Shown here: in pieces, positions 722-41,960 of the stretch
Numbering within the stretch: the stretch's first letter is position 1
Layout: each line of letters opens with the position of its first letter
DNA from: an uncultured Clostridia bacterium
Lineage (GTDB): Bacteria; Bacillota; DTU014
NCBI GenBank assembly: GCA_900016865.1
Contig: FIZI01000027.1
Location: 1 to 57,058 of the forward strand
Length of the DNA stretch: 57,058 nt
Direction of reading: 5' to 3'
Made by a program: the position numbers and the translations under genes
The notes under the pieces: generated by a model
Databases searched by the model: none
What the model was told of the DNA's origin: nothing
The model's input: only the letters and a program-made list of their open reading frames with translations

Positions 722-2086
722 TCATACGCCCCAGTTCTTTCTAATATCAGACCGATCACGCCAGATCTTTTTGCTGTCTATCAACCTTTTGATCACCCGG
801 ATCTGTTTGCGGTGTGTTTGGTAGTAGGGCGTGCGTTCGATGTCGGCCCACAGCTTGTCGATGTGAGGCCTGAAACGGTCCTTCCGCGCTTTGTAGAAGT
901 CTGATACTGCGTCTGTCGTTCCCAGCAAGTTCATTGTCAGATTCTTGTGTTCAATAACGACAAGTTTTGCCAGGTGAAGGACCCCCTCAGCAACGCGCCT
1001 TGAGACGAGCCAGCTGGCCGGAACTCTGTATTCGAAGCCTCCGTGCGGTTTCGTCCTGACATCTCCAATAAACCCGTATTTGGGACGACGGGTTGACGCC
1101 CTCACTGGGTGTTCGATTAGCATGCACGGAATTGCGAGGTAGTTGTCCAGAGTGCGTATGAGATCAGTAGTCAAGGGTACGCCCGTGAAGTGAATGTGCC
1201 CGCCGGTAGTGTATCCCTTGTAGGGCGAACTCCCCGCAAGCCAGATGCTGTTGACATTGTGCGTCTTCTGAGCCGCTGCAGCAAGGGCTTCCTTTATCTC
1301 CCGCACCAGCTGAGCAGGAGAGGTGTTCGGCCTTGGCCTTATTTCTGCTATCGGGTAGTTCCGCCGATCTCGAAAATAGCTCTGGCTATCATACCCGATT
1401 AGCCCTTCCTTGGGGAAGAAGTCGGACGCGAAGATGACCCGCTTGGTCGCAGGCGAGATCATCATGAACTCCGGATCAGCTCCTAGAACGACGTCGTCTG
1501 GATCCACCGAGTGGCTCTGGCGTCTACGTTCCAAAGCCTTAACAAAGGCATCCATGTATAGGACCGCAAGTTTCTTGGTTATCCGAGGCGCGGCAGAGAC
1601 CGTCAGGACTTTCAGTGTTTTCTTACGCTCTTGGTACAGATCTACTCTTCCGAAGTGGAGCCCAAGGCTATACAGCACCCTCCTTGCTAACCTTATTGCT
1701 CTATCTACTTTGGGTGATGTGAGGTTCGATACAGTCTTGAACTTGCCCCCTTCCTGCGAGGTCACCGCAATCGGTTCCATGTCAACAATGTGTATTCTGT
1801 AGCTCACAGTGGGAGGGGCAGAGTCTGCAGAGGCGGAACGAGATCGAAACGGGATCTTGTTCACACTCAGGCACTTGGCCGCTTCTGTACGCGAGTACAA
1901 GCGCTTGAGTGCTGAAGCTGTATTCAGCTCGAACCCAGAACCCTCGGGGCCTTCGCTATTGCCCCACCTGATGATACAGTCCCACTGGCGTGTTATGTAT
2001 GTGGTTGAGAATACAACTGATTCGTGTGCAGCTTTCTTGAGATGCTCAACACTGGGTTGGTCGTTGTGGAGCAATAGGATTGCCAT
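722..2086 (-). CDS. Putative amidoligase (COOH-NH2 ligase type 2) with degenerate ATP-grasp N-terminus
   Basis: 454 residues. The C-terminal half (about 195-454) matches the phage-type carboxylate-amine ligase family (PF14395-like, glutamine-synthetase fold): GADPEF (202-207), AEIRP (247-251), GGHIHF (295-300) and FEYRVPASWL (351-360) are the expected acidic, histidine and arginine motifs. Such enzymes are predicted to form amide bonds from ATP, a carboxylate and an amine. The N-terminal half looks like a collapsed ATP-grasp protein: it keeps the pre-domain and the tail (about residue 130-150, LGLHFGRVDL) but lacks the glycine-rich lysine loop that binds ATP. The ATG at 2086 has AAGGTG 11 bases upstream. 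It lies in a locus with three intact YheC/YheD ligases and cotE. The product formed is unknown. Confidence 0.75.
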   Translation of the reverse strand: MAILLLHNDQPSVEHLKKAAHESVVFSTTYITRQWDCIIRWGNSEGPEGSGFELNTASALKRLYSRTEAAKCLSVNKIPFRSRSASADSAPPTVSYRIHIVDMEPIAVTSQEGGKFKTVSNLTSPKVDRAIRLARRVLYSLGLHFGRVDLYQERKKTLKVLTVSAAPRITKKLAVLYMDAFVKALERRRQSHSVDPDDVVLGADPEFMMISPATKRVIFASDFFPKEGLIGYDSQSYFRDRRNYPIAEIRPRPNTSPAQLVREIKEALAAAAQKTHNVNSIWLAGSSPYKGYTTGGHIHFTGVPLTTDLIRTLDNYLAIPCMLIEHPVRASTRRPKYGFIGDVRTKPHGGFEYRVPASWLVSRRVAEGVLHLAKLVVIEHKNLTMNLLGTTDAVSDFYKARKDRFRPHIDKLWADIERTPYYQTHRKQIRVIKRLIDSKKIWRDRSDIRKNWGV

Positions 2087-2131
2087 ACTCCTGGTGCACC
2101 TTCTTAAGCTATCGACAGTTACGCTCTACAC

Positions 2132-2140
2132 TAGCCTATG
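2132..2140 (-). promoter_or_regulatory. Possible sigma-K type -10 element of the amidoligase gene
   Basis: On the minus strand the sequence reads CATAGGCTA, which fits the sigma-K -10 consensus CATANNNTA exactly. It would start transcription about 40 bases before the ATG at 2086. An AC dinucleotide lies upstream but at 14 rather than 16 bases, so the -35 match is poor. This is a short motif and could be chance; the spore-coat context raises its plausibility. Confidence 0.3.
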
Positions 2141-2191
2141 TAGGCACCCACAGAGTGGCGATAAGACGGTCTCATGCATGGGTCAAGAGCA

Positions 2192-2220
2192 GGCGGCCGG
2201 TGCGATGTACACCGGCCGCC
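2192..2220 (-). terminator. Perfect 11-bp hairpin between the M14-like gene and the amidoligase gene
   Basis: GGCGGCCGGTG (2192-2202) pairs without mismatch to CACCGGCCGCC (2210-2220) around a 7-base loop. It sits 45 bases beyond the stop of the M14-like gene on the minus strand. The bases after it (TGCTCTTG) are only weakly T-rich, so it is either an imperfect intrinsic terminator or an mRNA-stabilising stem between two co-directional genes. Confidence 0.45.
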
Positions 2221-2264
2221 AAAGCTGCCTGCCGTGCTGAACCCCAGGGCAAAACCCCTAACAG

Positions 2265-4787
2265 CTATTTAGCCTGCATTCCAAGCGTAGTTAGCACATG
2301 AGAAACCGCACTGAGGTTCAGAGCAACTCTGTCTTCGAGTGAATCGTTCGTTGATGTCGAGAAGAATATTGAGTTAACTCCCAAGAAGTCCGCACTGGAG
2401 CGTACCAGGCCGCCGGTAACAGGTCCGTAGAGAGGCACGAACCTTTTGGCTGACGGAACCTCTGAGTTCAGCTTGGCCACCAGCGAGTCGACCATGCCTT
2501 GGGTCGTCTCGTTGTGGACAGTAATCAGCGTATTGCCAAGCGCTCCAGACGTCGTTGCTCTGTAGCCTGCAGCCTCCTGCAGGTCGAGAAGCCAGTCCAC
2601 TTCGTACTCCTGCAGCGCGTCCCAAATCGCAGCGGCTAGCTCGTTCTTTGGAGTGTCCGTGCTGCTGGTCGGGAACTGCCTGTTCAGATCGCCTGAGTCG
2701 CTCAGGTACGCGACACCTTGTTCGACAGCCTGTGCGTTGGCTCGAGGCAGGACCAACAAAGTCCCGGCGTCAATCGAGAACTCCTTGACCATATCCGCAG
2801 CCTTTGGTCCGGAGGCGTCGTTGCCTCTGACACCTCCTACCACCATCACAGTGGGTCCCGGGTTCGCGCTGCGAATGACTGTCATCGGCGTTGCGAACTC
2901 CGTGCCTTCAGCAAGTATGACCTCCTGAGTTAGGGTACCCCGCATGCCGAGGTGTGCGAGGAGGTACTCCACACAGAGCCTGGCGTACTGCTTCCTAGTT
3001 TCCAAAGAGTCTTCAGTGGACGTCGAAACATAGAAGCTCTTTGTCCCCAGCGTATCCGCAGTTGACCTGACAAGGCCTGTCTTGACCGGAGATACCAGAG
3101 GAATGAACTTCTCCGCCTCGCTGTCAACGTGGTTGTTTAGCAGTTCACACAGCAGCGCTGATATGCGATCGGCTCCTGCTGGATGGGAGATAATGCTGTT
3201 TCCTTCAGCCGGCCTGCCTGCTGCCCTGAAGCCGGCCTCCTCGTGGAGGTCAACAACATACTCGATGTTGAGGTCGTCTATGGCATCGTATATTGCCTGT
3301 GCGAGCTCGCTCTTAGCTGCCTCGCCAACCACGGTTGGGAATTGCCTGTTGAGATCGCCCGACTCAACATATTTCTTCCCGGCCTCAACGGCTTGCTTGT
3401 TTGCTTCAGGCAGCACGTAGAGCGTGCCCTTTTCGATTTCCCAATCAAGCAGCTCCTTGGCTACCTCGACACCCGATGGCTCGCCGCCGCGGAGCCCGCC
3501 CACGACCAACACTGCCGGCCCAGGCTCGCTGCCCTTTATGCGGTACATCGTCGTCTCGTAGGGGGTGCCTTCGGCCAATACGCGCGGCCACGGCCCTCTG
3601 TATTGGTCCTCGTTCCATACCGGGATGGAGTCAGACGGAGTCATACCGAGCTCATCCAGGATAATGCCCATCATCCTTAGTTGAAGCTGGACACGGGTGT
3701 TCAAGGTCTGTTTCTGCGAAGTCTCCAGCTCCATTGCATGTGCACCTAGAAGATCGGCTGCTGATCTCGTCAATCCACCTTTGACAGGGTAACGAAGCAG
3801 AGTGAACTTTCTGATGCTTTCAGTAATCTCCGAATTCAAAGTGTTCACGACCTTGCTGGCAACTGCTGCACCCTCTGTGGTCGGGTGGTAGATGACCGTC
3901 TGGCCAACTGACCCGGTGCCGGCCTTGTAGTAGTCTACACCCTCGTGCATGTCTATGACCCAGTCTGGAGAGTAGGTCAACACTAGGTCCCAGATAGCTG
4001 CAGCAAGGGCGCTGTCAGCCGTCTCACCTTTAGTCTGAGGGAACGACCTGTTGAGGTCGGGGTCTCCTACGGCGTACCTTCTGCCTTGCTGAATCGCAGG
4101 GACGTTCGCCCGTGGCAGGACGATAAGAGTTCCGCTGCTAACCTTGTAGCTGGCTACTTGCTCTGCAGCAAGGTATCCGGCTGTCTCATTTCCATGGACT
4201 CCACCGGTGACAAACACAGTCGGTCCGGGCTTGTTGCTCTTGATGACATAGTAAGTGGTTTCGTACTTGGTACCCTCCATCAATTGCCCGGTCCTGATTG
4301 TCACATAGGTTTCCGGAGGCTCCTGACCGGGGTCCTCGGGGTCTTCGCCTGGCTCCTGGCCGGGGTCCTCAGGGTCTTCGCCTGGCTCCTCACCGGGGTC
4401 CTCGGGGTCTTCGCCTGGGTCCTCACCGGGGTCTTCAGGGTCTTCGCCTGGGTCCTCACCGGGGTCTTCAGGGTCTTCGCCTGGCTCCTCACCGGGGTCC
4501 TCAGGGTCTTCGCCTGGGTCTTCACCGGGATCCTGAGGGTCCTCGCCCGGATCTTCGCCAGGATCACTAGGCTCTGAAATTGGCTCCAAGTCGTCCGAAC
4601 TGACCTCGTAGACTTTGCCGAAGAAGTTGACTGTTACCTCCCATCCGTTCTCGTCATATTGGAAATTGGTGGTGACACCCGTGCGGTCTGTGGGTGCCTG
4701 TCCCTGGCTGACTGCTGTGAGGATCAGCACCAGGGCAAACAGTACGGCAAGCGCTCCCAGCCGTCTTTGAATTCTGGTGCGATTCAT
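2265..4787 (-). CDS. Secreted protein with three AstE/AspA-like (M14) domains and an acidic repeat
   Basis: 840 residues from the ATG at 4787, which has AAAGGAG 10 bases upstream. Residues 1-30 form a signal peptide (RRLGALAVLF, then hydrophobic to SQGQA). An acidic repeat fills 75-159. Three homologous domains of the succinylglutamate desuccinylase/aspartoacylase family follow, at about 160-385, 400-615 and 620-840. Domain 1 keeps the zinc ligands H198, E201 (HGNE) and H281 (DMHEG) and a candidate catalytic glutamate (MELE, 352-355). Domain 2 has R433 for the first histidine but keeps E436 and H515. Domain 3 has R654, D657 and Q737. DLNRxFP is conserved in all three. Only domain 1 looks catalytic; it would cleave an amide or peptide bond outside the cytoplasm. 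The substrate is unknown. Confidence 0.8.
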   Translation of the reverse strand: MNRTRIQRRLGALAVLFALVLILTAVSQGQAPTDRTGVTTNFQYDENGWEVTVNFFGKVYEVSSDDLEPISEPSDPGEDPGEDPQDPGEDPGEDPEDPGEEPGEDPEDPGEDPGEDPEDPGEDPGEDPEDPGEEPGEDPEDPGQEPGEDPEDPGQEPPETYVTIRTGQLMEGTKYETTYYVIKSNKPGPTVFVTGGVHGNETAGYLAAEQVASYKVSSGTLIVLPRANVPAIQQGRRYAVGDPDLNRSFPQTKGETADSALAAAIWDLVLTYSPDWVIDMHEGVDYYKAGTGSVGQTVIYHPTTEGAAVASKVVNTLNSEITESIRKFTLLRYPVKGGLTRSAADLLGAHAMELETSQKQTLNTRVQLQLRMMGIILDELGMTPSDSIPVWNEDQYRGPWPRVLAEGTPYETTMYRIKGSEPGPAVLVVGGLRGGEPSGVEVAKELLDWEIEKGTLYVLPEANKQAVEAGKKYVESGDLNRQFPTVVGEAAKSELAQAIYDAIDDLNIEYVVDLHEEAGFRAAGRPAEGNSIISHPAGADRISALLCELLNNHVDSEAEKFIPLVSPVKTGLVRSTADTLGTKSFYVSTSTEDSLETRKQYARLCVEYLLAHLGMRGTLTQEVILAEGTEFATPMTVIRSANPGPTVMVVGGVRGNDASGPKAADMVKEFSIDAGTLLVLPRANAQAVEQGVAYLSDSGDLNRQFPTSSTDTPKNELAAAIWDALQEYEVDWLLDLQEAAGYRATTSGALGNTLITVHNETTQGMVDSLVAKLNSEVPSAKRFVPLYGPVTGGLVRSSADFLGVNSIFFSTSTNDSLEDRVALNLSAVSHVLTTLGMQAK
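4311..4565 (-). repeat. 33-bp tandem repeat encoding an acidic 11-residue unit
   Basis: About 7.7 copies of a 33-bp unit encode DPGEDPGEDPE with E/D/Q substitutions at fixed positions (residues 75-159 of the M14-like protein). It separates a short N-terminal region from the first M14-like domain and is probably an extended, strongly negative spacer. The antisense strand stays open for long frames here only because of the repeat. Confidence 0.9.
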
Positions 4788-5022
4788 ACTGCGACTGCTC
4801 CTTTCGATATGGCTGTGTGCTTGGTATTGATGATTTGAACGGCCTTCCACACAGTGTCAAAGCACCGTTGACCTGCGGAGATGTAGAGGCCGTGTGTTCA
4901 CGAGATCGACTTCGCTGAGCAGTCCGGCCATCCTCTGCGTAATTCTAGGTGTCCGGGGAACGAGTTGCTTTGCCTGCTACTGACCGGTTTAGACTCCAAT
5001 AGCTCGATGCAATTCCTCTTTC

Positions 5023-5049
5023 ACACATTGGTCCGATATCCCATATAGT
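5023..5049 (+). promoter_or_regulatory. Candidate mother-cell (sigma-E/sigma-K) promoter of cotE
   Basis: The 320-base gap 4788-5107 separates the divergent M14-like gene and cotE. Within it CATATAGT (5042-5049) matches the sigma-E -10 box (CATACANT) at seven of eight positions, and CATATAGTG is one base from the sigma-K box. ACAC at 5023-5026 provides a sigma-K-like AC about 15-17 bases upstream. The sigma-E -35 match is weak. In Bacillus subtilis cotE is read by both sigma-E and sigma-K. I see no other gene or clear repeat in the gap. Confidence 0.4.
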
Positions 5050-5107
5050 GAAGTAGCATTGATCCTAGGAGATCGCGTAACTCGGAAGCGAAGGGGTGTG
5101 GCGCGCA

Positions 5108-5680
5108 GTGGCCCAGTGCTACGAATTCAGAGAGATCTTCGTCAAGACGGTCTGCGGCGAAGGCGACGAGAACGTTACTGAAAGCAGGTCGTTCCACCCG
5201 AATCATAGACCGACCAAAATCCTTGGGACGGAGATCACGGGCAATGAGTTCAAGGCGGAATATGTAGACAACAATGTCGTTGTCAAGGGAACTTACGAAA
5301 TGAACATCTGGTACGCGTACAACGAAGGCAGAGATACGGCGCTCTTGGCAGTCCCTGTGGAGTATGAAGACGAGGTTCCGCTAAGGCGTAATGAGGCGAC
5401 ACCGGACAGCGTGTGCGAAGTGAGGGTCTGGAATACCTATGGGCCAAAGGTCATTGATACGGAGATCCGTGGTGCAGACGTAGTGATTACGTGTTCAAGG
5501 ACGTGGCACGCAGAAATCATCGGGGAGGCTGCTCTGTGTGTCAAGGTCTATCCGGGTCAGTGTAGGGTGGATGACCAGTGCGACAAGGAAGACTTGGTAG
5601 ATGACAGCAGCGAAGAGGATTACGAAGACGATGAAATCGAGGTAGCCGATGAACAGGTCGGCAGAACGAGCTCCAGCTAA
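5108..5680 (+). CDS. cotE: Spore outer-coat morphogenetic protein CotE
   Basis: 190 residues. The order of motifs follows CotE throughout: YEFREIFVKTVCG near the start, then PTKILGTEI, YEMNIWYAYN (63-72), and HAEIIGEAALCVKVYPG (134-150). CotE is a mother-cell protein that assembles the outer spore coat on the forespore surface. The GTG at 5108 is preferred because AAGGGG lies 11 bases upstream and the protein then begins like known CotE; an in-frame GTG at 5096 would add four residues. The C-terminal tail (155-183) is almost entirely Asp/Glu, a feature also seen in other CotE proteins. It heads the right arm of the ligase locus. Confidence 0.9.
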   Translation: MAQCYEFREIFVKTVCGEGDENVTESRSFHPNHRPTKILGTEITGNEFKAEYVDNNVVVKGTYEMNIWYAYNEGRDTALLAVPVEYEDEVPLRRNEATPDSVCEVRVWNTYGPKVIDTEIRGADVVITCSRTWHAEIIGEAALCVKVYPGQCRVDDQCDKEDLVDDSSEEDYEDDEIEVADEQVGRTSSS

Positions 5681-5770
5681 TGGCTATGTTGTCCAAGCCG
5701 GGCTGCGGTGGATAGCTCTGCCTCAGGAAGTATGGCTTTGTCCGGCTACGCCATCTGTGGAGAGGCACCT

Positions 5771-5793
5771 CCACCCGATTGCCAATCGGGTGG
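5771..5793 (+). terminator. Perfect 10-bp hairpin after cotE
   Basis: CCACCCGATT (5771-5780) and AATCGGGTGG (5784-5793) pair perfectly around GCC. It lies 90 bases past the cotE stop and before the first YheC/YheD gene. The following bases (TGTTGCG) are not a T-run, so termination may be weak; it may instead set relative expression of cotE and the ligase genes. Confidence 0.5.
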
Positions 5794-5811
5794 TGTTGCG
5801 CGCCGATGTAG

Positions 5812-5819
5812 CATACGAT
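5812..5819 (+). promoter_or_regulatory. Possible sigma-E -10 element before the YheC/YheD genes
   Basis: CATACGAT matches the sigma-E -10 consensus CATACANT at seven of eight positions. The region 14-15 bases upstream (TGGTGTT) matches the -35 poorly, and transcription would begin very near the Shine-Dalgarno site of the ATG at 5837. Weak evidence, recorded because it repeats the motif type seen before cotE and spoIIM. Confidence 0.25.
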
Positions 5820-5836
5820 GCCACTGAGGTGGTCGC

Positions 5837-6976
5837 ATGCGGTGCAAGAGGTCGCCCGAGAAGCTGAGTACGTTGCGTTTGGGGGTGTTCATTGACGAGC
5901 ACAGAGATAAGCCGCCGTACGGAGAGCAGAATACCTATGTGACACGTCTGGCTGCAAGAGCAAGAAGCATGGGCATAGATTTGTTTGCGTTTTCCATCCC
6001 TCAGAAAAGCGTCGACCAAGGAAGACTTCAGGTGCGTTACCCTGAAAGGTCCTGGTCGATTTCGCAGGCACGGCTACCCCACGTGGTGTATGACCGGGCC
6101 ATTTTTACCAGACGGTCCGACAAACTCGCGGCCAGGTCCTTGTTAAGACAGCTGCAAGCACGCGGAGTCCTGGTGTTCAACCCAGTCATCGGAAGCAAAT
6201 TGGTCATTCATAGACAGCTGGAATCAGTGCCGGGAGTGAGTCACTTGCTTCCGGACACCGCCAGAGTGATAGACGTTGAGACAGTCCATCAGTTTCTCAA
6301 GAAATGGGGAGACGTGTTTGTAAAGCCGAGTGTCGGGACTCAAGGCCGGGGAGTGCTACGGATCGTCAGGCGGGGAGAGAGGTTCGAAACGTCCGGTTTC
6401 ACTAACAAACTGGACTACATAGAATATACCGATCTTGACAAGAACGGCCTGAATAGGCTGCTCAGATCCATAATCGGTTCCAGGACACACATGGTGCAAA
6501 GGGCTGTTGAGACTCTCAAGCTGGGCGGATCCAGGACGGACGTCCGGTCACTTGTTCAGAAGGACCGGACAGGTGCCTGGCGTGTTACGGGAGCAGCGGC
6601 CCGAGTTGCCGAAGGCAGCAGCAGCGTAACCAATCTCCACCGCGGGGGACGCGCTTTGCCTCTTTCCGAGCTTGTTCAGGGTATTGGCGAAGCCGCCGGG
6701 ATTGACTTCAGGAGTATCGAGAACGAGATCAACAGGGCGTCGATAGCAGTCTCGGAGGCGCTTTCGCAACGCTACTCGCTCCTTGGGGAACTCGGACTTG
6801 ATTTCATAATAGGCAAAGATGGAAGAGTATGGCTCATAGAGGTAAACCCTCGGCCAGGAAGGAATGTCCTTCGAAACTCGGGCATGGATGATGCAGCTAG
6901 ATTGGGAGACGAACGCCCGCTGGAGTATGCACAATACCTAGTGTCAGCAGTACGAGCAGCCAGAGGCAGGAGGTAG
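5837..6976 (+). CDS. YheC/YheD family ATP-grasp protein (spore coat-associated), copy 1
   Basis: 379 residues. YheC/YheD proteins are ATP-grasp ligases linked to the endospore coat; the reaction is not established but the fold joins a carboxylate to an amine through an acyl-phosphate. Seen here: an N-terminal DExRDKPPYGEQ segment typical of the family, the nucleotide-binding lysine loop FVKPSVGTQGRGV (K163), a SxxxDVR motif near 232-237, NLHRGG (266-271) and the metal-binding end LIEVNPRPG (E335, N337). All key positions look intact. The ATG at 5837 has GAGGTGG about 4-5 bases upstream, close; TTG codons at 5873 or 5879 are alternatives. Only five bases separate it from the next family member. 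Confidence 0.85.
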   Translation: MRCKRSPEKLSTLRLGVFIDEHRDKPPYGEQNTYVTRLAARARSMGIDLFAFSIPQKSVDQGRLQVRYPERSWSISQARLPHVVYDRAIFTRRSDKLAARSLLRQLQARGVLVFNPVIGSKLVIHRQLESVPGVSHLLPDTARVIDVETVHQFLKKWGDVFVKPSVGTQGRGVLRIVRRGERFETSGFTNKLDYIEYTDLDKNGLNRLLRSIIGSRTHMVQRAVETLKLGGSRTDVRSLVQKDRTGAWRVTGAAARVAEGSSSVTNLHRGGRALPLSELVQGIGEAAGIDFRSIENEINRASIAVSEALSQRYSLLGELGLDFIIGKDGRVWLIEVNPRPGRNVLRNSGMDDAARLGDERPLEYAQYLVSAVRAARGRR

Positions 6977-6981
6977 GACCG

Positions 6982-8367
6982 TTGCCCTACTCAGTACGCA
7001 AAGCAGTTGTTGACGTACGCCCGTCTATTGCATCGAGGCATCTGTTGCTTGGAAAGTCTATTGCCTCTGCAATGAAGGGCAGTTCCGACAGGGTTTACGT
7101 TTTTGCAGGCCTTTCATCGAGCACCATGAGGATCGCTTCGTATGGTGCGGACGTAGGGCCTAACGCTCTCGTGTTGAACCCAGGTTGCGCTGCCAGCCTT
7201 GGACTGCAGTCTGGCGACGTAGTGAGGATCCTAATCAAGAGAAACCAAATAAGGATTGGCCCGTACGTTGGGATTCTGACAGCGCCAATCGGGCGGTCGA
7301 CCTCCCCGAGGCGCTGCTATGGAAAAGATACAGAATACTTCCGCGATGTTTGCGCTGCTGGAATGCACATGGGTCTTGTCGCGTATGTGTTCTCCTACGA
7401 TGCCGTAGATATGTCCAAGGGCCGCGTGCTAGGCAGAGTGCCGGAACCCCAGAGATACGGGCGCTGGCACTCTAGGGAGTTCCCACTGCCAGACGTCATC
7501 TTCAATCGCATACCGACAAGGGGACAGGAGCGGTCCGAGCGCGCCAGACGACTCATTGAATACGCCAAGAAACACAATTACATGCGTCTGTTTAACGGCG
7601 GCTTCATGGACAAATGGACTGTATACAAACAGCTCTCTCAACACCCGGATGTCAAGGACATGGTGCCTGCCACTGCTGTCTTTCGTGGCCTATCGATGCT
7701 AAAGAGCTGGCTTCAGCGATACAGGTCAGTTTATCTCAAACCGACAAACGGGAGTCTTGGCGAAGGAATTGTTGTTGTCAGGTTGAGCTCCAGAGGTGTG
7801 GCTTGCCGCTATAGAAACGAACGCAAACGTCCAGTCAGTGAGCTCTTGAGAAACGTAGAGGCTGTGTACGCACGGATCAAACCGATGGTAACTAGGAGAC
7901 GGTACTTGATTCAGCCAGACCTAAATCTGCTGACCGTAGACGGAATGCCGTTTGACGTTAGGCTTTTGATGCAACGGAACTCGAGGGGCAAGTGGTATAG
8001 AACGAAGATGTTCGCTCGAGTTGCGAGGCGAGGAGAATACACTTCGAACATCAGTCGCGGAGGGTCCGGAGTGCCGCTTGATCAGCTGCTGGTGCGGATT
8101 GCTCCCAAGAAGGCACAACACGTCCTGCAGGCAGTGAGGCGGGCCGGAGTGACGGTTGCTCAGGCTGTAGAGAGTATGTCTGAGACACCTGTAGGTGAGC
8201 TAGGTATAGATATCGGGATCGATCGTGCCCTCAACCTGTGGTTAATCGAGGTTAACAGCAAACCTCACGTCGACGTGGTAAAGCCATCTACTTCTGAGAG
8301 AGCGCGGGAAGCCTCAGTCAGACGGCCTATGGAATTTGCGATTTACCTACACAAGAACGCTTTGTAG
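6982..8367 (+). CDS. YheC/YheD family ATP-grasp protein, copy 2, with N-terminal extra domain
   Basis: 461 residues from a TTG at 6982, with AGGAGGT 7 bases upstream. Residues 1-105 form an extra domain found in the longer YheD-like members (NPGCAASLGLQSGDVV, IRIGPYVGILTAP). The ATP-grasp part follows: DVIFNRIP (171-178), lysine loop YLKPTNGSLGEGI (K253), FDVRLLMQ, NISRGG and LIEVNSKPH. The active-site residues are present, so it should bind ATP. It is translationally close to both neighbours, which argues for one operon of three paralogues. The paralogues are clearly diverged from each other rather than recent duplicates. Confidence 0.85.
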   Translation: MPYSVRKAVVDVRPSIASRHLLLGKSIASAMKGSSDRVYVFAGLSSSTMRIASYGADVGPNALVLNPGCAASLGLQSGDVVRILIKRNQIRIGPYVGILTAPIGRSTSPRRCYGKDTEYFRDVCAAGMHMGLVAYVFSYDAVDMSKGRVLGRVPEPQRYGRWHSREFPLPDVIFNRIPTRGQERSERARRLIEYAKKHNYMRLFNGGFMDKWTVYKQLSQHPDVKDMVPATAVFRGLSMLKSWLQRYRSVYLKPTNGSLGEGIVVVRLSSRGVACRYRNERKRPVSELLRNVEAVYARIKPMVTRRRYLIQPDLNLLTVDGMPFDVRLLMQRNSRGKWYRTKMFARVARRGEYTSNISRGGSGVPLDQLLVRIAPKKAQHVLQAVRRAGVTVAQAVESMSETPVGELGIDIGIDRALNLWLIEVNSKPHVDVVKPSTSERAREASVRRPMEFAIYLHKNAL

Positions 8368-8410
8368 AAGGGCGGGCCCCGCCGCTTCCATCCACCAGGA
8401 GGCATTAGGA

Positions 8411-9562
8411 ATGGCTGTTAGGAGGAGGAAATCCGTAGTTTCCGCAAGGCCGTTGCTAGGAATCGTCACCTGTCGGTGCGGGTTCAAAATAACCAAGCGA
8501 AGGCCCTTCGCAGGCCAGACGGCGAGGTTTAGACGGCTCTGCGAAGATGCTCGAAAGCTTGGGCTTGATGTAGCCGTCTTCTATGCAGAGGACATCCATC
8601 CGGCGTCGGATCAGATCAACGGGATGACCTACTCAGCAAGAAAGCGGAAATGGATCTCGAAAGCGTATAGGTTTCCGGACGTCGTGTACAACCGCATCCC
8701 AAGTCGGAAAAGAGAAGCTAACGAACGAATCGCTTCGGTGCTAGACGCTGTCAGTCGGCTTGGGATACCGCTGTTTAACACGAGGTATCTCAATAAACTG
8801 GAAGTGTACAGAGCGGCGAAGAAGTCGCCGGAGCTGGCGAGCCACGTACCGGACACTCGGCGACTGCGCGAGGCACAGGATCTCTATACGATGTTGGCCA
8901 AGTACAATGCGGTGTACGTGAAGAGAAGCGACGGCACGCTGGGCAATGGAATCAGCGCTGTTTCAAAGGTAGGCAAGAAGTATGTCATCCGGAAAAATGT
9001 GGGACGCAAGGTCCTCGAAAGCAAACTCACCAAGAGTCAGGTTACTCAAGTAATCGCCGGTTATGTCAAGCGCAAACGATATCTTGTTCAGCAAGGGTTG
9101 GATCTTGTCACGTACAACGGCAGGCCGCTGGACTTCCGAGTCATGGTGCAGAAGAGAGGAGATGGGAAGTGGCGAGTCACTGGCATCGGAACAAGAGTAG
9201 CCGGCCCCAACCAGATCACAACTCATGTTCCTCGTGGAGGGACGAAGCTTTCGTTCAGGAAGGGAATAGAGTGCGCCGTTGGCGACAACCAAAAGAGCGC
9301 CCGTGTGTTGACCAGGCAGATACGGCGCCTGTGCTGCGCCACTGCACGGCAGGTTGAGAAGTCGTTAGACTTGCATCTCGCCGAGGCTTCGTTCGACATA
9401 GGTGTGGATACAGCTGGCCGCATATGGTTGATAGAGATGAACTCAAAGCCTTTCGTCTTTGATGAAAAGCGCATCCAAGCCAAGGCTAGCAGATATCTCC
9501 TCGACTACGTATGGCACGTTATCCGCAGTGGCAGGACAAGTGCGAGACTTGGAGAAGTATGA
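8411..9562 (+). CDS. YheC/YheD family ATP-grasp protein, copy 3
   Basis: 383 residues from the ATG at 8411, with AGGAGG 8 bases upstream; a longer in-frame start at 8336 would overlap copy 2 and lacks a ribosome site. The ATP-grasp landmarks are DVVYNRIPSR (90-99), lysine loop VYVKRSDGTLGNGI (K171), FRVMVQ, HVPRGG and LIEMNSKPF. The glutamate and asparagine of the metal site are kept. The N-terminus (LGIVTCRCG) is shorter than in copy 2. As third gene of the run it probably acts with the other two, for example adding different residues to one product; this division of labour is inference. Confidence 0.85.
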   Translation: MAVRRRKSVVSARPLLGIVTCRCGFKITKRRPFAGQTARFRRLCEDARKLGLDVAVFYAEDIHPASDQINGMTYSARKRKWISKAYRFPDVVYNRIPSRKREANERIASVLDAVSRLGIPLFNTRYLNKLEVYRAAKKSPELASHVPDTRRLREAQDLYTMLAKYNAVYVKRSDGTLGNGISAVSKVGKKYVIRKNVGRKVLESKLTKSQVTQVIAGYVKRKRYLVQQGLDLVTYNGRPLDFRVMVQKRGDGKWRVTGIGTRVAGPNQITTHVPRGGTKLSFRKGIECAVGDNQKSARVLTRQIRRLCCATARQVEKSLDLHLAEASFDIGVDTAGRIWLIEMNSKPFVFDEKRIQAKASRYLLDYVWHVIRSGRTSARLGEV

Positions 9563-15850: not shown

Positions 15851-16489
15851 GTGTCTGCACGAAGACGACGCACTCACGTCAAAGGGCCTGCGCTTAGGGA
15901 CTTGGCCATTCCGTCTGTAATGGTAGTGATCATGTTGGTGATGGGAATTATCTTCGGAAGCATCGCTGCTCAAACCTTAGACCCGATGGAGAAGAACCGG
16001 CTGGTGCAGTTTCTCGGGCGGTTCAGCCAGTCGCTCCTCAATGGCATGCCCTCTGCCAAAGCGTCGCCTGAGGCCGCAATTATTGCGAATCTTCAGAAGC
16101 TGGGCGCAGTATGGGTGTTGGCAGTGACAGTGATAGGAGCCCCTTTCATCCTGGCAATGATGTTTCTTCAGGGGTTTGCTACCGGGTTCACAGTTGCGAT
16201 TCTTGTGTCGGAGTGGTCCATCAAAGGACTCCTACTGGCGCTTGCCTCAGTCGTTCCCCACAATGCTTTTCTTGTAGGAGGGCTTGGCGTATCCTCAGCT
16301 GCAGGCCTGACTCACGCCTGGACATGCGCCAAGTCGCTCTTTGTCAGGGAAGTCACACCTCTGCGAGCAAGGCTGTTTGTGTTTTCGCTGATCTGCCTCA
16401 TCTGTGCGGCCGTACTGGTCGTCGGCGGACTGGTCGAAGCCTATCTCTCGCCGCTGCTGTTGCGCAAGGTTGCACCGCTTGTATTCTAA
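15851..16489 (+). CDS. spoIIM: Stage II sporulation protein M
   Basis: 212 residues with about five membrane segments. The fold and motif order fit SpoIIM: an N-terminal membrane helix, a periplasmic-side loop with FLGRFSQSLLNG, then a hydrophobic block containing FLQGFATGFTVAIL, VVPHNAFLVGGLG and a last helix near the C-terminus. SpoIIM works with SpoIID and SpoIIP in the mother-cell membrane to remodel septal peptidoglycan and drive engulfment. The GTG at 15851 has GGAGG 8 bases upstream. xerD follows after 58 bases. Confidence 0.9.
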   Translation: MSARRRRTHVKGPALRDLAIPSVMVVIMLVMGIIFGSIAAQTLDPMEKNRLVQFLGRFSQSLLNGMPSAKASPEAAIIANLQKLGAVWVLAVTVIGAPFILAMMFLQGFATGFTVAILVSEWSIKGLLLALASVVPHNAFLVGGLGVSSAAGLTHAWTCAKSLFVREVTPLRARLFVFSLICLICAAVLVVGGLVEAYLSPLLLRKVAPLVF

Positions 16490-21405: not shown

Positions 21406-21462
21406 TAGTAACTGCACGGCTTGTCCTTGGTGATCAAAGCGGCTCTGAAGGGAGTTGAGCGA

Positions 21463-21831
21463 ATGTCTGTGGAGTCGAAGCAGGATCGCGAGTGTCTGGT
21501 TGTCAGGGTTAGCGGTGAACTGGACTTGAGGACAGCGGGTGAGCTCAAATCAGAAGTCGATCCGGTCCTCGAGCGGGCACCCGAGCGACCCGTGGTGGTG
21601 TTGGATCTCTCAGATGTGAGCTTCATGGATTCCTCAGGAATGGGAGCTATACTTGGACGCTATCGAACAGTCAGCCAAATGGGAGGGAAGCTAGTGGTTT
21701 GCGGTCTGACTCCACAACTGCGGAAGCTGTTTGAGTTGACTGGACTCATGCGCATCATCCCGGTGTACGCCTCAGTGGACGATGCCATCTCTAGTCTGCG
21801 AGGAGGGAGTGCAGGTGCGCAGTCTCAATAA
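21463..21831 (+). CDS. spoIIAA: Anti-sigma F factor antagonist SpoIIAA
   Basis: 122 residues, a STAS-domain protein. Unphosphorylated SpoIIAA binds SpoIIAB and frees sigma-F in the forespore. The phosphorylation site S58 sits in SFMDSSGMGAILGRY (53-67), identical in context to the Bacillus site. VRVSGELDLRTAGEL marks the first strand and turn of the fold. The ATG at 21463 has AAGGGAG 8 bases upstream; a TTG at 21421 would add 14 residues without a ribosome site. The 3' end overlaps spoIIAB by 17 bases. Confidence 0.95.
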   Translation: MSVESKQDRECLVVRVSGELDLRTAGELKSEVDPVLERAPERPVVVLDLSDVSFMDSSGMGAILGRYRTVSQMGGKLVVCGLTPQLRKLFELTGLMRIIPVYASVDDAISSLRGGSAGAQSQ

Positions 21832-22270
21832 CGTCAAAATCGTCTTCCAAGCTCAGCCCGAAAACGTAGGATTCGCAAGAGTCGCGGTTGCCTGCATAGC
21901 ATCCCAGCGCGATGACCTTACGCTAGACGTACTTGAGGACATCAAGCTCGTTGTATCCGAGGCAGTTTCCAACGCGATTATCCACGGGTACGGCAACGAT
22001 CCGAGCAAATACGTTACAGTTGAGTGCACGCTGTATGATGAGGGGATCGAGGTGGTCGTGGAGGATCAAGGAACGGGGATCGAGGACGTTGCAAAGGCTC
22101 GTGAACCTGCGTTTACGACAAATCCTGAGCGAATGGGAATGGGAATGACTTTGATGGAAGCGCTGATGACGCAGTTTGAGATCACGTCCAAACTCGGACA
22201 GGGCACAAGAGTCGTGCTCTTCAAAGCCTTTGACCATTCTGACAGTCAACAAGACGCTGCGGAGGACTAG
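21815..22270 (+). CDS. spoIIAB: Anti-sigma F factor / serine kinase SpoIIAB
   Basis: 151 residues of the GHKL kinase fold. It binds and inhibits sigma-F and phosphorylates SpoIIAA on serine with ATP. The N-box is E49-AVSNAIIHGY and the G1 box is VEDQGTGIED (82-91); MGMGMTLMEALM forms the ATP lid and GQGTRVVL the last motif. The GTG at 21815 is chosen because AGGAGG lies 9 bases upstream; an in-frame ATG at 21782 would need a longer overlap with spoIIAA. It is followed by sigF after 77 bases. Confidence 0.95.
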   Translation: MRSLNNVKIVFQAQPENVGFARVAVACIASQRDDLTLDVLEDIKLVVSEAVSNAIIHGYGNDPSKYVTVECTLYDEGIEVVVEDQGTGIEDVAKAREPAFTTNPERMGMGMTLMEALMTQFEITSKLGQGTRVVLFKAFDHSDSQQDAAED

Positions 22271-22347
22271 CCTGACACAGCCATACCAACACACTTGTAG
22301 CGTTCTCTGCGTCGCTATATGCGTCAAACTCGCAGGAGAGAGTATTT

Positions 22348-23115
22348 ATGTCTGCCATTGAGGCCACAATAAACCTGCCGAAGCTTGGCCTCCTCGATGA
22401 CAGTACTACCAAAGACTTGATTTACAAGGCACAGGCAGGCGATATAGCTGCCAAAGATAAACTGGTCCAGCACAACCTGCGCTTGGTCTACAGCATCGCT
22501 CTGCGCCTTAAGCGCCCGGGCATCGAACTAGAGGACTTGTTCCAAGTTGGTTGCCTCGGCCTTATGAAGGCGATCGATGATTTTGACCTGAGCTACAACG
22601 TGCGCTTCTCGACGTATGCCGTCCCGGTGATTGCCGGAGAGATCAAGCGGCTGATTCGCGAAGACGGGTTGATCAAAGTCAGCCGTTCGACCAAGAGGCT
22701 TGGTCAGCTGCTAATGTCCACCCGCGAGAGGCTTTCTGCTGAGCTGTCGAGAGAGCCTACAGTTCATGAACTGGCGGCTGCTGTTGGCGTGTCGCCGGAG
22801 GAGGCGGTAGAAGCCCTTGAAGCGTCTTTGCCAGTATCTTCGCTGCATGAGAGGATAGGCTCGCCTGACGGCGGGCTGGAAGTTGAGGACATGATCGCTG
22901 CAGGCAGCGATCCGGAGAGCGCGGTCGTTGACAGTGTATCACTGAAGAACGCTCTGTCGCAGCTCTCTGAGAGGGAGCGTAGAATACTCTTGATGCGGTA
23001 TCTCGAGGAGAAGACTCAGGCTGAGGTGGCCAAGGTAATAGGCGTGTCGCAGGTGCAGATTTCACGAATCGAAAAGCGCATTTTGGCAGCTCTCAAGGAC
23101 TCGATTGAGCGCTGA
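22348..23115 (+). CDS. sigF: RNA polymerase sigma-F factor
   Basis: 255 residues, sigma-70 family of the sporulation/SigB type. Region 2 carries LVQHNLRLVYSIALR and DLFQVGCLGLMKAIDDFD with FSTYAVPVIAGEIKR; region 3 has LSREPTVHELAAAVGVS; region 4 has LSERERRILLMRYLEEKTQAEVAK with the helix-turn-helix VSQVQISRIEK. It directs early forespore transcription and is held by SpoIIAB, encoded directly upstream. The ATG at 22348 has CAGGAGAG about 10 bases upstream. The two genes that follow start after only 18 bases and may be read from the same transcript. Confidence 0.95.
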   Translation: MSAIEATINLPKLGLLDDSTTKDLIYKAQAGDIAAKDKLVQHNLRLVYSIALRLKRPGIELEDLFQVGCLGLMKAIDDFDLSYNVRFSTYAVPVIAGEIKRLIREDGLIKVSRSTKRLGQLLMSTRERLSAELSREPTVHELAAAVGVSPEEAVEALEASLPVSSLHERIGSPDGGLEVEDMIAAGSDPESAVVDSVSLKNALSQLSERERRILLMRYLEEKTQAEVAKVIGVSQVQISRIEKRILAALKDSIER

Positions 23116-37987: not shown

Positions 37988-38638
37988 TTGAGGTTCTTCT
38001 TGGACACAGCCAACATAGATGAGATCCGTGAAGCGTATTCGTGGGGTGTAATATCTGGAGTCACCACCAATCCGTCACTTGTAGCCAGAGAAGGGCGTAT
38101 CTTTGAAGAGGTGGTCAAAGAAATCGCATCAACCGTCGACGGGCCTGTCAGTGCAGAGGTGATTAGTCTTGATGCTGACGGCATGATCAGAGAGGCCCGG
38201 ACTATGGCGGGGTGGGCTGACAATGTAGTCATCAAGATACCGATGACGCCCGAAGGGCTCAAGGCAGTGTCTGTGTTGAGCCGGGACGGCATTGATACAA
38301 ACGTAACGCTGGTATTCAGTCCGACTCAAGCACTTCTCGCTGCAAGAGCCGGAGCTAGGTATGTGAGCCCGTTCGTCGGCAGACTGGATGATATCGCGTC
38401 AGACGGGATCGGACTGGTGGCTGACATAGCTGAGATTTTCGCTGTTCACGGTATTGAGACAGAGATAATCGCAGCGAGTATTCGCCATCCTATGCACGTG
38501 GTAGAAGCCGCTAAGGCCGGTGCGCACATAGCGACAGTGCCATTTGCGACTCTTGTGGCAATGACAAAGCACCCGTTGACAGACATCGGGATTCAGCGTT
38601 TCTTAGCTGATTGGAAAAAATCTACTGGCCAGGCGTAG
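37988..38638 (+). CDS. tal: Transaldolase, small TalC/MipB type
   Basis: 216 residues, the size of the compact transaldolases. The Schiff-base lysine is K83 in [25 protein letters not shown] at the start and GVTTNPSL (24-31) are family marks, with [11 protein letters not shown] and [13 protein letters not shown] later. It transfers dihydroxyacetone units between sugar phosphates; some relatives are fructose-6-phosphate aldolases. A TTG start at 37988 is chosen because GGAGGGGGG lies about 7 bases upstream and the resulting protein starts exactly like the family; an ATG at 37970 falls within the ribosome site. Confidence 0.9.
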
Positions 38639-38652
38639 CGAATCGAGGTTCA

Positions 38653-41049
38653 GTGGCTTTGCAGATCCGAGTTGCCAGGAATGCTGGTTTTTGTTTCGGA
38701 GTCGAGCGTGCCATTAGGATGGCAAAGAGTGCGAAACCGGTGGCAGATGGGCCTCGGACTTACATATTGGGTGCGCTGGTTCACAATCCGCTGGTCACTG
38801 CCAAACTGACACAGCTTGGATTTGTACACGTAGACTCGCATGAGTCTGTGCAGTCCGGCCGAGTCGTGCTCCCGTCCCATGGAGTGACGCCTTCTGTTCG
38901 CAAGAGTCTGATCGACAGGGGTATAGATGTCATAGATGCAACTTGCCCTTTTGTCGCGAGAGCGCAACAATTTGTAGAGGAGTTGTCTCGCTCAGGGCGT
39001 AGAGTGATTATAGTAGGAGATAGGGGACATAGGGAGGTGGTCGGACTCGCGGGTCACAGTGCCACCGGAGTAGAGATCATCAGCAGTGTTGAAGAGTCGG
39101 TGGAGCTTTTCAGCAGGTTGCCTCTAGATTCTCCAGTGGCTGTGATCTCCCAGACCACTCAAGATCAAGTTGCTTTTGAATTGATAGTCAGAGCTCTCAA
39201 ATCACGCTTTACTGACATCGTAGTTAAGAACACCATTTGCACGGCCACCAGTGACCGCCAGCAAGGAGTAATTGAGCTGGCTTCACAGGTTGATATGATG
39301 ATAGTGGTCGGAGGCCGCAATAGCGCCAATACTCGTCGGTTGTACGAGATTAGTCGATCACTGGGAGTAGACACGTGTCATATCGAGTCGGCTGATGAAC
39401 TGGATGAGGTGGTTGTCGCAAGCGGCAGCAGAATAGGTATTGCCGCTGGGGCATCAACACCGGGTTGGGCAATCAAGGAGGTTGTGAACAAGATGGAAGA
39501 GAAGACAAAAGGACTCAATGGCGAACTTGAGGGGGCGATGACGTCAGAAGGCGCAGGGTTGGACCAGGCAAATGCAAACGAGGCAGAACAGGCGACACAA
39601 GTTGTCGGCCAGCCCGAACAGACCGAATCTGCAGCGCCTCAGGACACCGACGCCGTGCCTGCACAGGAGCAGGACGGCATTGGCGGGGCCTCTGATACTG
39701 ACGAGTCAGGGCAGCTCTCGGCATCAACTGTTGATGGAGAACTCGAGTCAGGACAGGCTGTTGAGGATGTTGAGTCCACTCCTGAAGCCGACCAGGTTGA
39801 GGTTCCCCAGGAAGCTCCTTCTGAGGACGTTACCACTATGACTGAGGCCCTGAAGTCTGAATACGTTCCCCAAGAAGGAGAGATCATCAAGGGCAAGGTT
39901 GTACAGATCGGCGATAACGAAGTCTTGGTCGACATAGGTTACAAGTCAGAGGCAGTAATACCTGTGAAAGAGCTGTCTGTACGGCCGGTCGATCACCCAT
40001 CTGAAGCTGTGCAAGTCGGCGACGAGATTCACTGTGTTGTCCTCTCAGTGGATATCGACGAAGAGCGAAGCATCGTCGTTTCCAAGAAACGCGCGGACTT
40101 GATTCAAGCATGGGAACGTGTAGAGACCGCGTTTAACGAGGGCACGACTGTTGAAGGAAAGGTCGTCGATGTTGTAAAGGGCGGCGTGACAGTGGACATC
40201 GGGCTGCGCGGCTTTGTACCGGCTTCCCAGATTGCACTGCGTCCAGTCGCGGACTTGAGGTCTGTGCTTGGTCAAACCCTTACTATGAAGGTCCTGGAAG
40301 TTGAGAAGGAGCGCAACAACGTCGTGCTTTCTCAGCGTGCGTACCTGGAGGAGCGGCTTGCTGAGGCCAAGAAGCGGATCTTTGAGACTGTCAAGGAGGG
40401 CGACCTTGTCCTAGGCACTGTCACCAGGCTTACTAACTTCGGTGCATTTGTAGATATTGGCGATGGCGTAGAAGGACTACTCCACGTATCTGACATCTCC
40501 TGGAACAGGATTGGCCATCCTGGACAGGTCCTCAAGGAAGGAGACCAGATCAAGGTCATGGTCCTCAATATGGACCCGGAGAAGGAGAGAATCTCACTGG
40601 GCCTCAAGCAAACCCAGGACGACCCCTGGACTAAAGTGCCGACGAAGTACCCGGTCGGAACAGTAACTGATGGCAAGATCACCCGACTAACTGACTTCGG
40701 AGCGTTTGTCGAGCTGGAGCCGGGTATAGAGGGCTTGGTCCACGTTTCGCAGATTTCCCGTGAGAGAGTGGAGAAGCCAAGCGATGTCCTCAAGGAGGGC
40801 CAGACCGTTCAGGTCAAGGTCATCAGCCTCAGGCAAGATCAGCGACGTATTGGACTGAGCATAAGAGAAGTCGAGGACGAGTTTTCTGTATACAGCACCG
40901 GTTCTACTGCACGGACGAAGTCCAACTCGGACGAACCTAGCGGTGGCGCCACGATTGGTGAGCTTGTAGGAGATATCCTCAAGCAGCACAACTTCACACT
41001 GGAGTCCAGTGATGAGTCTGACTCCGAAGAGGATGAGTCCGAGAGATAA
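38653..41049 (+). CDS. ispH: Fusion of HMBPP reductase IspH and S1-domain protein
   Basis: 798 residues. Residues 1-280 are IspH, the last enzyme of the MEP isoprenoid pathway, with cluster cysteines C14 (GFCFGVERA), C98 (DATCPFV) and C196 (NTICTAT). A linker rich in Glu, Asp, Gln and Ala (285-405) leads to four S1 RNA-binding domains (about 407-480, 495-565, 580-650, 665-735), the last two of bacterial ribosomal-protein-S1 type (TNFGAFVDIGDGVEGLLHVSDISW). The tail is acidic. IspH-RpsA fusions occur in Clostridia, so this is a true gene fusion rather than an assembly fault. The GTG at 38653 has GAGG close upstream; a TTG at 38659 is the alternative. Confidence 0.95.
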   Translation: MALQIRVARNAGFCFGVERAIRMAKSAKPVADGPRTYILGALVHNPLVTAKLTQLGFVHVDSHESVQSGRVVLPSHGVTPSVRKSLIDRGIDVIDATCPFVARAQQFVEELSRSGRRVIIVGDRGHREVVGLAGHSATGVEIISSVEESVELFSRLPLDSPVAVISQTTQDQVAFELIVRALKSRFTDIVVKNTICTATSDRQQGVIELASQVDMMIVVGGRNSANTRRLYEISRSLGVDTCHIESADELDEVVVASGSRIGIAAGASTPGWAIKEVVNKMEEKTKGLNGELEGAMTSEGAGLDQANANEAEQATQVVGQPEQTESAAPQDTDAVPAQEQDGIGGASDTDESGQLSASTVDGELESGQAVEDVESTPEADQVEVPQEAPSEDVTTMTEALKSEYVPQEGEIIKGKVVQIGDNEVLVDIGYKSEAVIPVKELSVRPVDHPSEAVQVGDEIHCVVLSVDIDEERSIVVSKKRADLIQAWERVETAFNEGTTVEGKVVDVVKGGVTVDIGLRGFVPASQIALRPVADLRSVLGQTLTMKVLEVEKERNNVVLSQRAYLEERLAEAKKRIFETVKEGDLVLGTVTRLTNFGAFVDIGDGVEGLLHVSDISWNRIGHPGQVLKEGDQIKVMVLNMDPEKERISLGLKQTQDDPWTKVPTKYPVGTVTDGKITRLTDFGAFVELEPGIEGLVHVSQISRERVEKPSDVLKEGQTVQVKVISLRQDQRRIGLSIREVEDEFSVYSTGSTARTKSNSDEPSGGATIGELVGDILKQHNFTLESSDESDSEEDESER

Positions 41050-41204: not shown

Positions 41205-41960
41205 TTGCCTGTTGGGGGCATTATTCTTCTTGTCATAGCGGCGTTAGTCTTCCTCGGCTTTGCCCAACGGATCCTTGACCGTATGCACCTCACAGACGGC
41301 CAAGCGATTTTGATCCTTGCTGCGATGGCGCTCTTGAGCCTGATCAATATAACGGTCAGCAGAGCCAACCCTCGAGTCATTGTCAACCTAGGCGGGCTGG
41401 CGGTTCCAGTCGGCCTCGCAGTTTATGTCTTGGTCAGAGCCACCGCGGCAGAGAAGGCACGGTCCATCATAACTGCTCTCGCGACCGGCGCTGTCTTGTA
41501 TGGAATCACCAAGGTGTTTGACTTCGAGGAAGGCCAACAGATCATAGCTCCAATTTACCTGTTCGGCCTCGTCGCGGGCGTCTTGTCATACATCGGAACC
41601 AGGTCCAGAAGGACTGCGTTTGTCACCGGAGTCTTGGCTGTGATAGCGCTAGACTTGGCAAACCTGATAGAGTCGGTTGTGCGCGGGCTGCCTACCACCG
41701 TCAATTTTGGAGGAGCAGGGGTCTTTGACTCTACAGTAGTTGCGGGCGTCGTCGCTGCCTTGCTGGCGGAAGCCTTTGGTGAGGCGGCTGAGCGTCTGGG
41801 CGGGGCACAACACGAGCTTGAGGAGCATCCTGAGATCAAGCAAGCTTCTGCAGTCGATACAGAGCAACCTGAGAGCGATCCTGTTGTGCAGCGAAATCAG
41901 GGCAACAACTTGGTCGAGTTCAAACAGCGCAATGGGAATGGTGGTGGAAAGCGTGAGTAG
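41205..41960 (+). CDS. DUF1614 family membrane protein
   Basis: 251 residues from a TTG with CGGAGGTGG 6 bases upstream. About six to seven hydrophobic segments fill residues 1-200: VGGIILLVIAALVFLGFA, ILILAAMALLSLINITV, NLGGLAVPVGLAVYVLV and so on. The motif GGAGVFDSTVVAGVVAALLAE near 167-187 fits DUF1614. The last 50 residues are polar. It overlaps spoIIP by eight bases, and the pair is likely co-expressed in sporulation; the function is unknown. Confidence 0.7.
   Translation: MPVGGIILLVIAALVFLGFAQRILDRMHLTDGQAILILAAMALLSLINITVSRANPRVIVNLGGLAVPVGLAVYVLVRATAAEKARSIITALATGAVLYGITKVFDFEEGQQIIAPIYLFGLVAGVLSYIGTRSRRTAFVTGVLAVIALDLANLIESVVRGLPTTVNFGGAGVFDSTVVAGVVAALLAEAFGEAAERLGGAQHELEEHPEIKQASAVDTEQPESDPVVQRNQGNNLVEFKQRNGNGGGKRE

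Follow-up and report, generated by a model that had tools for sequence, protein, structure and literature searches.

The window considered here, that is, the whole analysed stretch of 57,058 nucleotides, belongs to the genome of an uncultured Clostridia bacterium (2.19 Mb, 59 contigs). Six neighbouring proteins are encoded between positions 722 and 9562, with family calls being Pfam profile matches as judged against curated cut-offs, and with all six scores lying far above those cut-offs. On the reverse strand is found the gene for a PF14395 carboxylate-amine (COOH-NH2) ligase (722..2086; 321.6 bits vs. a cut-off of 25), along with that for a secreted protein possessing three tandem AstE/AspA-like domains (2265..4787; PF24827 three times, 138.2 bits vs. 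25). On the forward strand there is cotE (5108..5680; PF10628, 114.7 bits vs. 25), encoding an outer spore coat morphogenetic protein which here has an acidic C-terminal tail, and then genes for three YheC/YheD-type ATP-grasp ligases (PF14398, cut-off 26.8), to be described as YheC/D-1 (5837..6976; 211.9 bits), YheC/D-2 (6982..8367; 254.2 bits), and YheC/D-3 (8336..9562; 231.8 bits). An earlier note on this DNA had described one glutamine-synthetase-like and three ATP-grasp ligases lying with CotE and an AstE-like protein, and with this the Pfam scores agree.

The PF14395 gene is the only one of this genome, and three of the genome's four YheC/D genes are located here. The CotE match spans positions 2-170 of the 177 of its profile, with translation more likely starting at GTG 5108, for a protein of 190 amino acids, than at 5096. 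For the hydrolase, ATG 4787 is the most likely start, rather than 4850, giving 840 amino acids and with AAAGGAG as ribosome site. Two non-coding features are relevant as well: a block at 5011..5066 (forward strand) which is identical between two genera and carries a sigmaK-like promoter, and a conserved CATAGGCTAGTG block at 2129..2140 (reverse strand), upstream of the PF14395 gene, which fits the sigmaK -10 element (CATAnnnTA).

Markers of a spore former, as recognised by reading, are found elsewhere in the window: spoIIAA-spoIIAB-sigF-like genes at 21421-23115, a spoIIM-like gene at 15851-16489, and a spoIIP-like gene at 41740-43122. An open frame of 812 amino acids at 38611-41049 looks, by its sequence, like a fusion of IspH (LytB) with ribosomal-protein-S1-type domains.

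Linkage across the phylum

Relatives were sought in 300 genomes drawn evenly from the phylum, a sampling which was chosen since a single-query scan of genome contigs gave only three Syntrophomonadaceae loci. PF14395 was present in 36 of these genomes (35 once one weak fragment is left out), representing 12 families, with genomes within one family not being independent of each other. CotE exceeded its cut-off in 36 genomes as well, and it was encoded no more than 10 kb from PF14395 in all 23 of the genomes possessing both (ten families). YheC/D was encoded within that same distance of PF14395 in 32 of 35 genomes, with the chance expectation for such proximity being approximately 0.7% per gene. 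Among genomes with CotE and without PF14395, YheC/D was near CotE at none of 13 loci. No other gene family was as constant near PF14395 in a survey of neighbourhoods, and the only other genome of the same class that was compared displays the same arrangement, up to where its contig ends. The linkage of PF14395, YheC/D, and CotE is real and old, and conservation of this kind, to which the earlier note had looked for confirmation, extends over about a dozen families. It does not extend, however, to the entire triplet of PF14395, YheC/D, and AstE which had been expected alongside cotE. The ligases and CotE indeed are linked, but only 14 of 36 genomes, from five families, have AstE adjoining PF14395; that is far above chance, with linked AstE absent from most families.

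The strongest sign of a common pathway for the two types of ligases is a fusion. In one genome (G088, family f50; L044:8164-10938 on G088:C1), an open frame of 924 amino acids joins PF14395 to a complete YheC/D (E=7e-88). Arrangements vary in other families. In the Paenibacillus-like family f23, CotE adjoins PF14395, the YheC/D genes are located elsewhere, and no sigmaK site was recognised, while in family f16 both PF14395 and YheC/D are present and CotE was not found anywhere in the genome.

Other architectures were seen in passing. Two YheC/D units are joined in tandem within single proteins of 935 and 911 amino acids (L091:6366-9173 and L092:8551-11286, respectively), in genomes lacking PF14395. 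At eight loci (L039, L055, L057, L059-L061, L063, and L064), CotE is represented by a tandem pair of paralogues, only one of which has an acidic tail.

Catalytic residues, folds, and possible substrates

The PF14395 protein of the window matches its profile in full (1-254 of 254, over residues 201-454), with D204, E206, E248, R250, H297, H299, and R344 found in 44 of 44 homologues. In YheC/D the ATP-grasp residues K, K, D, R, E, and N are kept in essentially all of the approximately 110 copies covering the site, and the set K/K/D/R/Q/D/E/N/P is found whole in each of the three window proteins. Judged by these residues, the active sites of the window's four ligases are intact. Such retention would be unexpected of dead enzymes, making it barely credible that YheC/D and PF14395 are structural coat proteins which have lost catalysis, this despite YheC and YheD being known in B. 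subtilis as components of the coat, with no activity assigned to them (PMC7352945, PMC7769602).

For PF14395 itself Pfam gives a GCS/glutamine-synthetase-like fold. The window protein possesses in addition an N-terminal extension of approximately 200 amino acids, which aligned by hhalign to the C-lobe of YheCD with E=8.5e-4 but a probability of 24%, and residues 127-270 match PHROG 2599, a RimK-like phage family (E=2.8e-7). These matches are suggestive only of that extension being a degenerate ATP-grasp lobe. The AlphaFold2 model of this protein was poor (pLDDT 50), a profile search of the PDB with PF14395 gave no match, and tblastn against phages found no relative. Syntrophomonadaceae-like PF14395 proteins end in low-complexity tails of 74-111 amino acids, mostly basic (R/K/S/N-rich; L035-L037, L040-L043, L047-L049, and L054), a tail which the window protein does not possess.

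The AlphaFold2 model of YheC/D-2 is better (pLDDT 86.5), and its fold matches those of D-Ala-D-Ala ligase, glutathione synthetase, LysW-ArgX, RimK, and RiPP ligases, with TTL lower down. As far as a predicted structure allows, that settles the type of chemistry, i.e., ATP-grasp amide ligation, though it would fit protein and small-molecule substrates equally. Enzymes with ATP-grasp and GCS folds indeed have small-molecule substrates as often as proteins.

One reading of these folds is that the ligases make a soluble peptide or poly-amino-acid, e.g., a gamma-linked oligopeptide, within the late mother cell, and that this product is afterwards incorporated into the coat or added to its surface. 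Among the closest folds are those of D-Ala-D-Ala ligase, glutathione synthetase, and D-cycloserine synthetase, and stepwise synthesis would suit several different ligases in a row (a general argument; PMC4431377). Conservation with the cluster, however, was seen for neither a transporter nor a tailoring enzyme nor a precursor gene, the most constant non-ligase partner instead is CotE, a structural coat protein, and YheD in B. subtilis is itself a component of the coat (PMC3533761). Synthesis of a soluble product consequently is viewed as possible but not the expected outcome.

From a different perspective, the ligases might cross-link coat proteins via side-chain amide or ester bonds, Asp/Glu to Lys/Ser/Thr, much as do the ATP-grasp ligases of graspetide RiPPs. 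RiPP-associated ATP-grasp ligases (7mgv, 7drp) are among the top structural matches, and the coat, as is well established, is highly cross-linked. That similarity is at the level of fold only, though, with 10-11% identity, and the surroundings of the genes yielded neither a conserved acceptor motif nor a leader-like peptide, which together leave cross-linking unlikely.

If instead the ligases modify coat-layer proteins, then the CotE tail is one candidate acceptor. It carries 17 Asp/Glu among its last 40 residues, and tails reaching 10 or more acidic residues over that length were seen at 22 of 23 linked loci vs. 5 of 10 others (p=0.005, uncorrected for relatedness). Acidic tails occur also, however, in genomes that yielded neither PF14395 nor YheC/D (L078, i.e., genome G194, and L081, i.e., genome G125), and in B. 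cereus a CotE tail of 15 negative charges renders assembly of the CotE meshwork Ca2+-dependent (PMC11980541). Because of these two points the tail possibly is an acceptor, one for which an independent function is known, rather than evidence of modification. Other possible substrates are the Met/Asn/Tyr-rich, coat-like proteins of family f12 (L060:8989-9417, L064:9094-9459), which have sigmaK-like promoters and adjoin PF14395.

Promoters, timing, and the hydrolase

Between the genes for CotE and the hydrolase there are approximately 55 bp which are identical in two genera, with diverged flanks. This block contains ACACA-N16-CATATAGTG, a sigmaK-like promoter matching at 5023-5050. The promoter occurs once in the genome, and the sigmaK-like pattern four times in the whole window, both strands considered. 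SigmaK is the late sigma factor of the mother cell. Among the collected loci, sigmaK-like sites are found upstream of 15 of 18 leading cotE genes and 24 of 43 leading yheC/D genes, with approximately 0.5 expected in each case, and upstream of 15 of 258 other leading genes (Fisher p of ~5e-14 for cotE and ~4e-14 for yheC/D); they were seen in 10 of 12 families. As the final base of the pattern was relaxed after the window's own site had been seen, the window is not independent evidence and the weight rests on loci other than the window. The strict pattern was found at 8 of 18 cotE and 4 of 43 yheC/D genes, vs. 0.2-0.4 expected. Reversed and complemented control patterns were not enriched, nor were sigmaE, sigmaF, sigmaG, or sigma-70 patterns at ligase or cotE genes. 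The sigmaK gene exceeded its cut-off in 33 of 36 genomes, including that of the window. Given these sigmaK-like promoters before cotE and yheC/D, the ligases most likely act in late coat assembly.

The PF14395 gene of the window has a conserved CATAGGCTA block of its own, with a weak -35; for the CATAGGCTAGTG block, the -35 is not convincing. Co-transcription of the AstE-like and PF14395 genes in the window was considered as well; it is countered by a GC-rich inverted repeat between the genes and by the separate, conserved CATAGGCTA block.

In B. subtilis, cotE P2 is sigmaK-driven, and yheC and yheD are sigmaE/SpoIIID genes, that is, of the mother-cell programme (PMC517825).

The hydrolase displays a different association. 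Its N-terminus, MNRTRIQRRLGALAVLFALVLILTAVSQGQA, reads as a signal peptide, and a signal-peptide-like segment is present by eye in all linked AstE copies. Export from the mother cell leads to the medium or to the intermembrane space, i.e., not to the mother-cell cytoplasm where the coat forms. Contact of an exported AstE with the coat would consequently have to await lysis or germination. SigmaK-like promoters were found at 0 of 19 copies of AstE genes. Of its three domains in the window, the first has complete zinc-ligand motifs (HGNE and DMHE), and the second (RGGE/DLHE) and third (RGND/DLQE) have incomplete sets. Relatives in the PDB are 3cdx (7e-12), DoeB, and secreted Csd4 (4wck, 4q6m), and because Csd4-type cell-wall carboxypeptidases are among these relatives, a role on cortex or wall peptides would seem at least as likely.

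The acidic repeat is found within this same hydrolase. The linker, of DPGEDPGEDPE type (4316..4565, reverse strand), follows the N-terminal segment and precedes the first AstE domain, and contains a 33-bp tandem unit in 7 copies (4318-4547), with 42 Asp/Glu in 83 residues. About four GGEDP units stand in its place in sister genus G001, and it is missing in other families. As read from these sequences, the DPGEDPE repeat is a fast-evolving linker. Thus, of the two acidic segments that the earlier note had pointed to, both are real, but the repeat is inside the hydrolase, not in a protein of its own.

Other observations concern AstE in relatives. A secreted protein of 1219 amino acids beside PF14395 (L071:10365-14024) has approximately five AstE-like domains, with several of the later copies lacking the zinc-ligand histidine. 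Upstream of AstE in family f16 there is a conserved, sigmaH-like AGGA-N-GAA(T) box (L040-L043, L045, L047-L049, L054). This box was tested only after its sighting, and in one variant a reversed control pattern did equally well, so that the box amounts to no more than a lead.

The cycle envisaged by the earlier note, in which ligases add residues to the acidic segments of CotE and the repeat and the AstE-like hydrolase then removes them, is very improbable. What would speak for it is the above-chance adjacency of AstE and PF14395, along with the greater frequency of acidic CotE tails at linked loci, that p value being uncorrected for relatedness. Linked AstE proteins, however, would appear to be exported from the compartment of coat formation, their genes are without sigmaK-like promoters, linked AstE is absent from most ligase-bearing families, two of the three window domains are degenerate, and the supposed acidic target is a variable linker within the hydrolase itself. 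Under the best explanation the secreted AstE-like protein would instead be a neighbour that is not always present, one acting separately and beyond the mother-cell cytoplasm. The hydrolase and the acidic repeat, that is, drop out of the model.

Proposed function and known systems

Linkage, intact catalytic residues, the fusion, and sigmaK-type promoters together make a sporulation-time carboxylate-amine ligation system likely, and this ligase half of the earlier proposal stands even as the hydrolase half does not. The ligases probably act on coat carboxylates in late coat assembly. More specifically, the cotE-yheC/D operon and the divergently oriented PF14395 gene would be expressed in the mother cell under the control of sigmaK, during late sporulation, with the YheC/D ATP-grasp enzymes and PF14395 then acting together, probably in sequence. 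Carboxylates would be activated as acyl-phosphates and amide-bonded to amino groups, with acceptors being proteins of the CotE-organised coat layer, and potentially including the CotE tail. For sigmaK-timed, ATP-dependent ligation on coat-layer proteins by PF14395 plus YheC/D the prospects are roughly balanced between right and wrong, with the protein substrate, the residue joined, and CotE as target being what we infer. If true, this predicts for the spore coat a type of covalent chemistry not yet described, from a cluster linked to CotE across some ten families. A broader reading, under which many Bacillota covalently modify their spores with amides in this sigmaK-timed manner, e.g., adding amino acids to the CotE tail or other coat carboxylates, and so tune the Ca2+-dependent CotE meshwork in a way resembling tubulin polyglutamylation, is offered only tentatively. 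A search for literature on spore-coat polyglutamylation found no relevant paper.

The TTL/TTLL tubulin polyglutamylases have the ATP-grasp fold in common with YheC/D. YheC/D-2 scores 23.4 bits against Pfam TTL (cut-off 20.1) but with only residues 406-432 matched, and the YheC/D family profile matches TTL, TTLL6, and TTLL7 weakly and over short stretches (E of 2.6e-3 to 6.7e-3). The TTL match spans just 27-38 residues, at the catalytic E-x-N, and the top structural matches of YheC/D-2 instead are Ddl, GSHS, ArgX, and RimK. Assignment of YheC/D-2 as a TTL/TTLL polyglutamylase with a full TTL domain was rejected on the basis of so short and weak a match. Closer in fold are LysW-ArgX (TM 0.69) and RimK (0.65), which show the best target-normalised similarity to YheC/D-2 among the matches listed. 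These ATP-grasp enzymes attach Glu at the C-terminal end of a protein, acting on acidic protein tails. They differ from YheC/D-2 in that identity is 14-16% and the locus has no LysW-like carrier or link to S6. The window hydrolase similarly has AstE_AspA_cat domains in common with AstE/AspA and M99 Csd4-type metallohydrolases, but unlike these it possesses three tandem domains, two with incomplete zinc-ligand sets, behind an acidic linker.

A PF14395-YheC/D-CotE gene context, with a role in modification of the spore coat or wall, reportedly was predicted by Iyer, Abhiman, Burroughs and Aravind in 2009, and the Pfam text for PF14395 presumably repeats that prediction. Beyond it, the present analysis quantifies the linkage, describes the fusion protein and the sigmaK signature, finds AstE to be optional and differently regulated, and assesses both the CotE tail and the repeat.

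The B. subtilis YheC and YheD belong to the same family, PF14398, and are expressed in the mother cell (PMC517825), with YheD a SpoIVA-dependent coat protein (PMC3533761, PMC7769602). PF14395 was not found in B. subtilis, among the control genomes, and in two genomes with high, B. subtilis-like CotE scores, cotE is unlinked to yheC/D (L079, L080). The YheC and YheD of model Bacilli are coat proteins without known activity, and for these the cluster suggests one, with mass shifts of coat proteins as the prediction.
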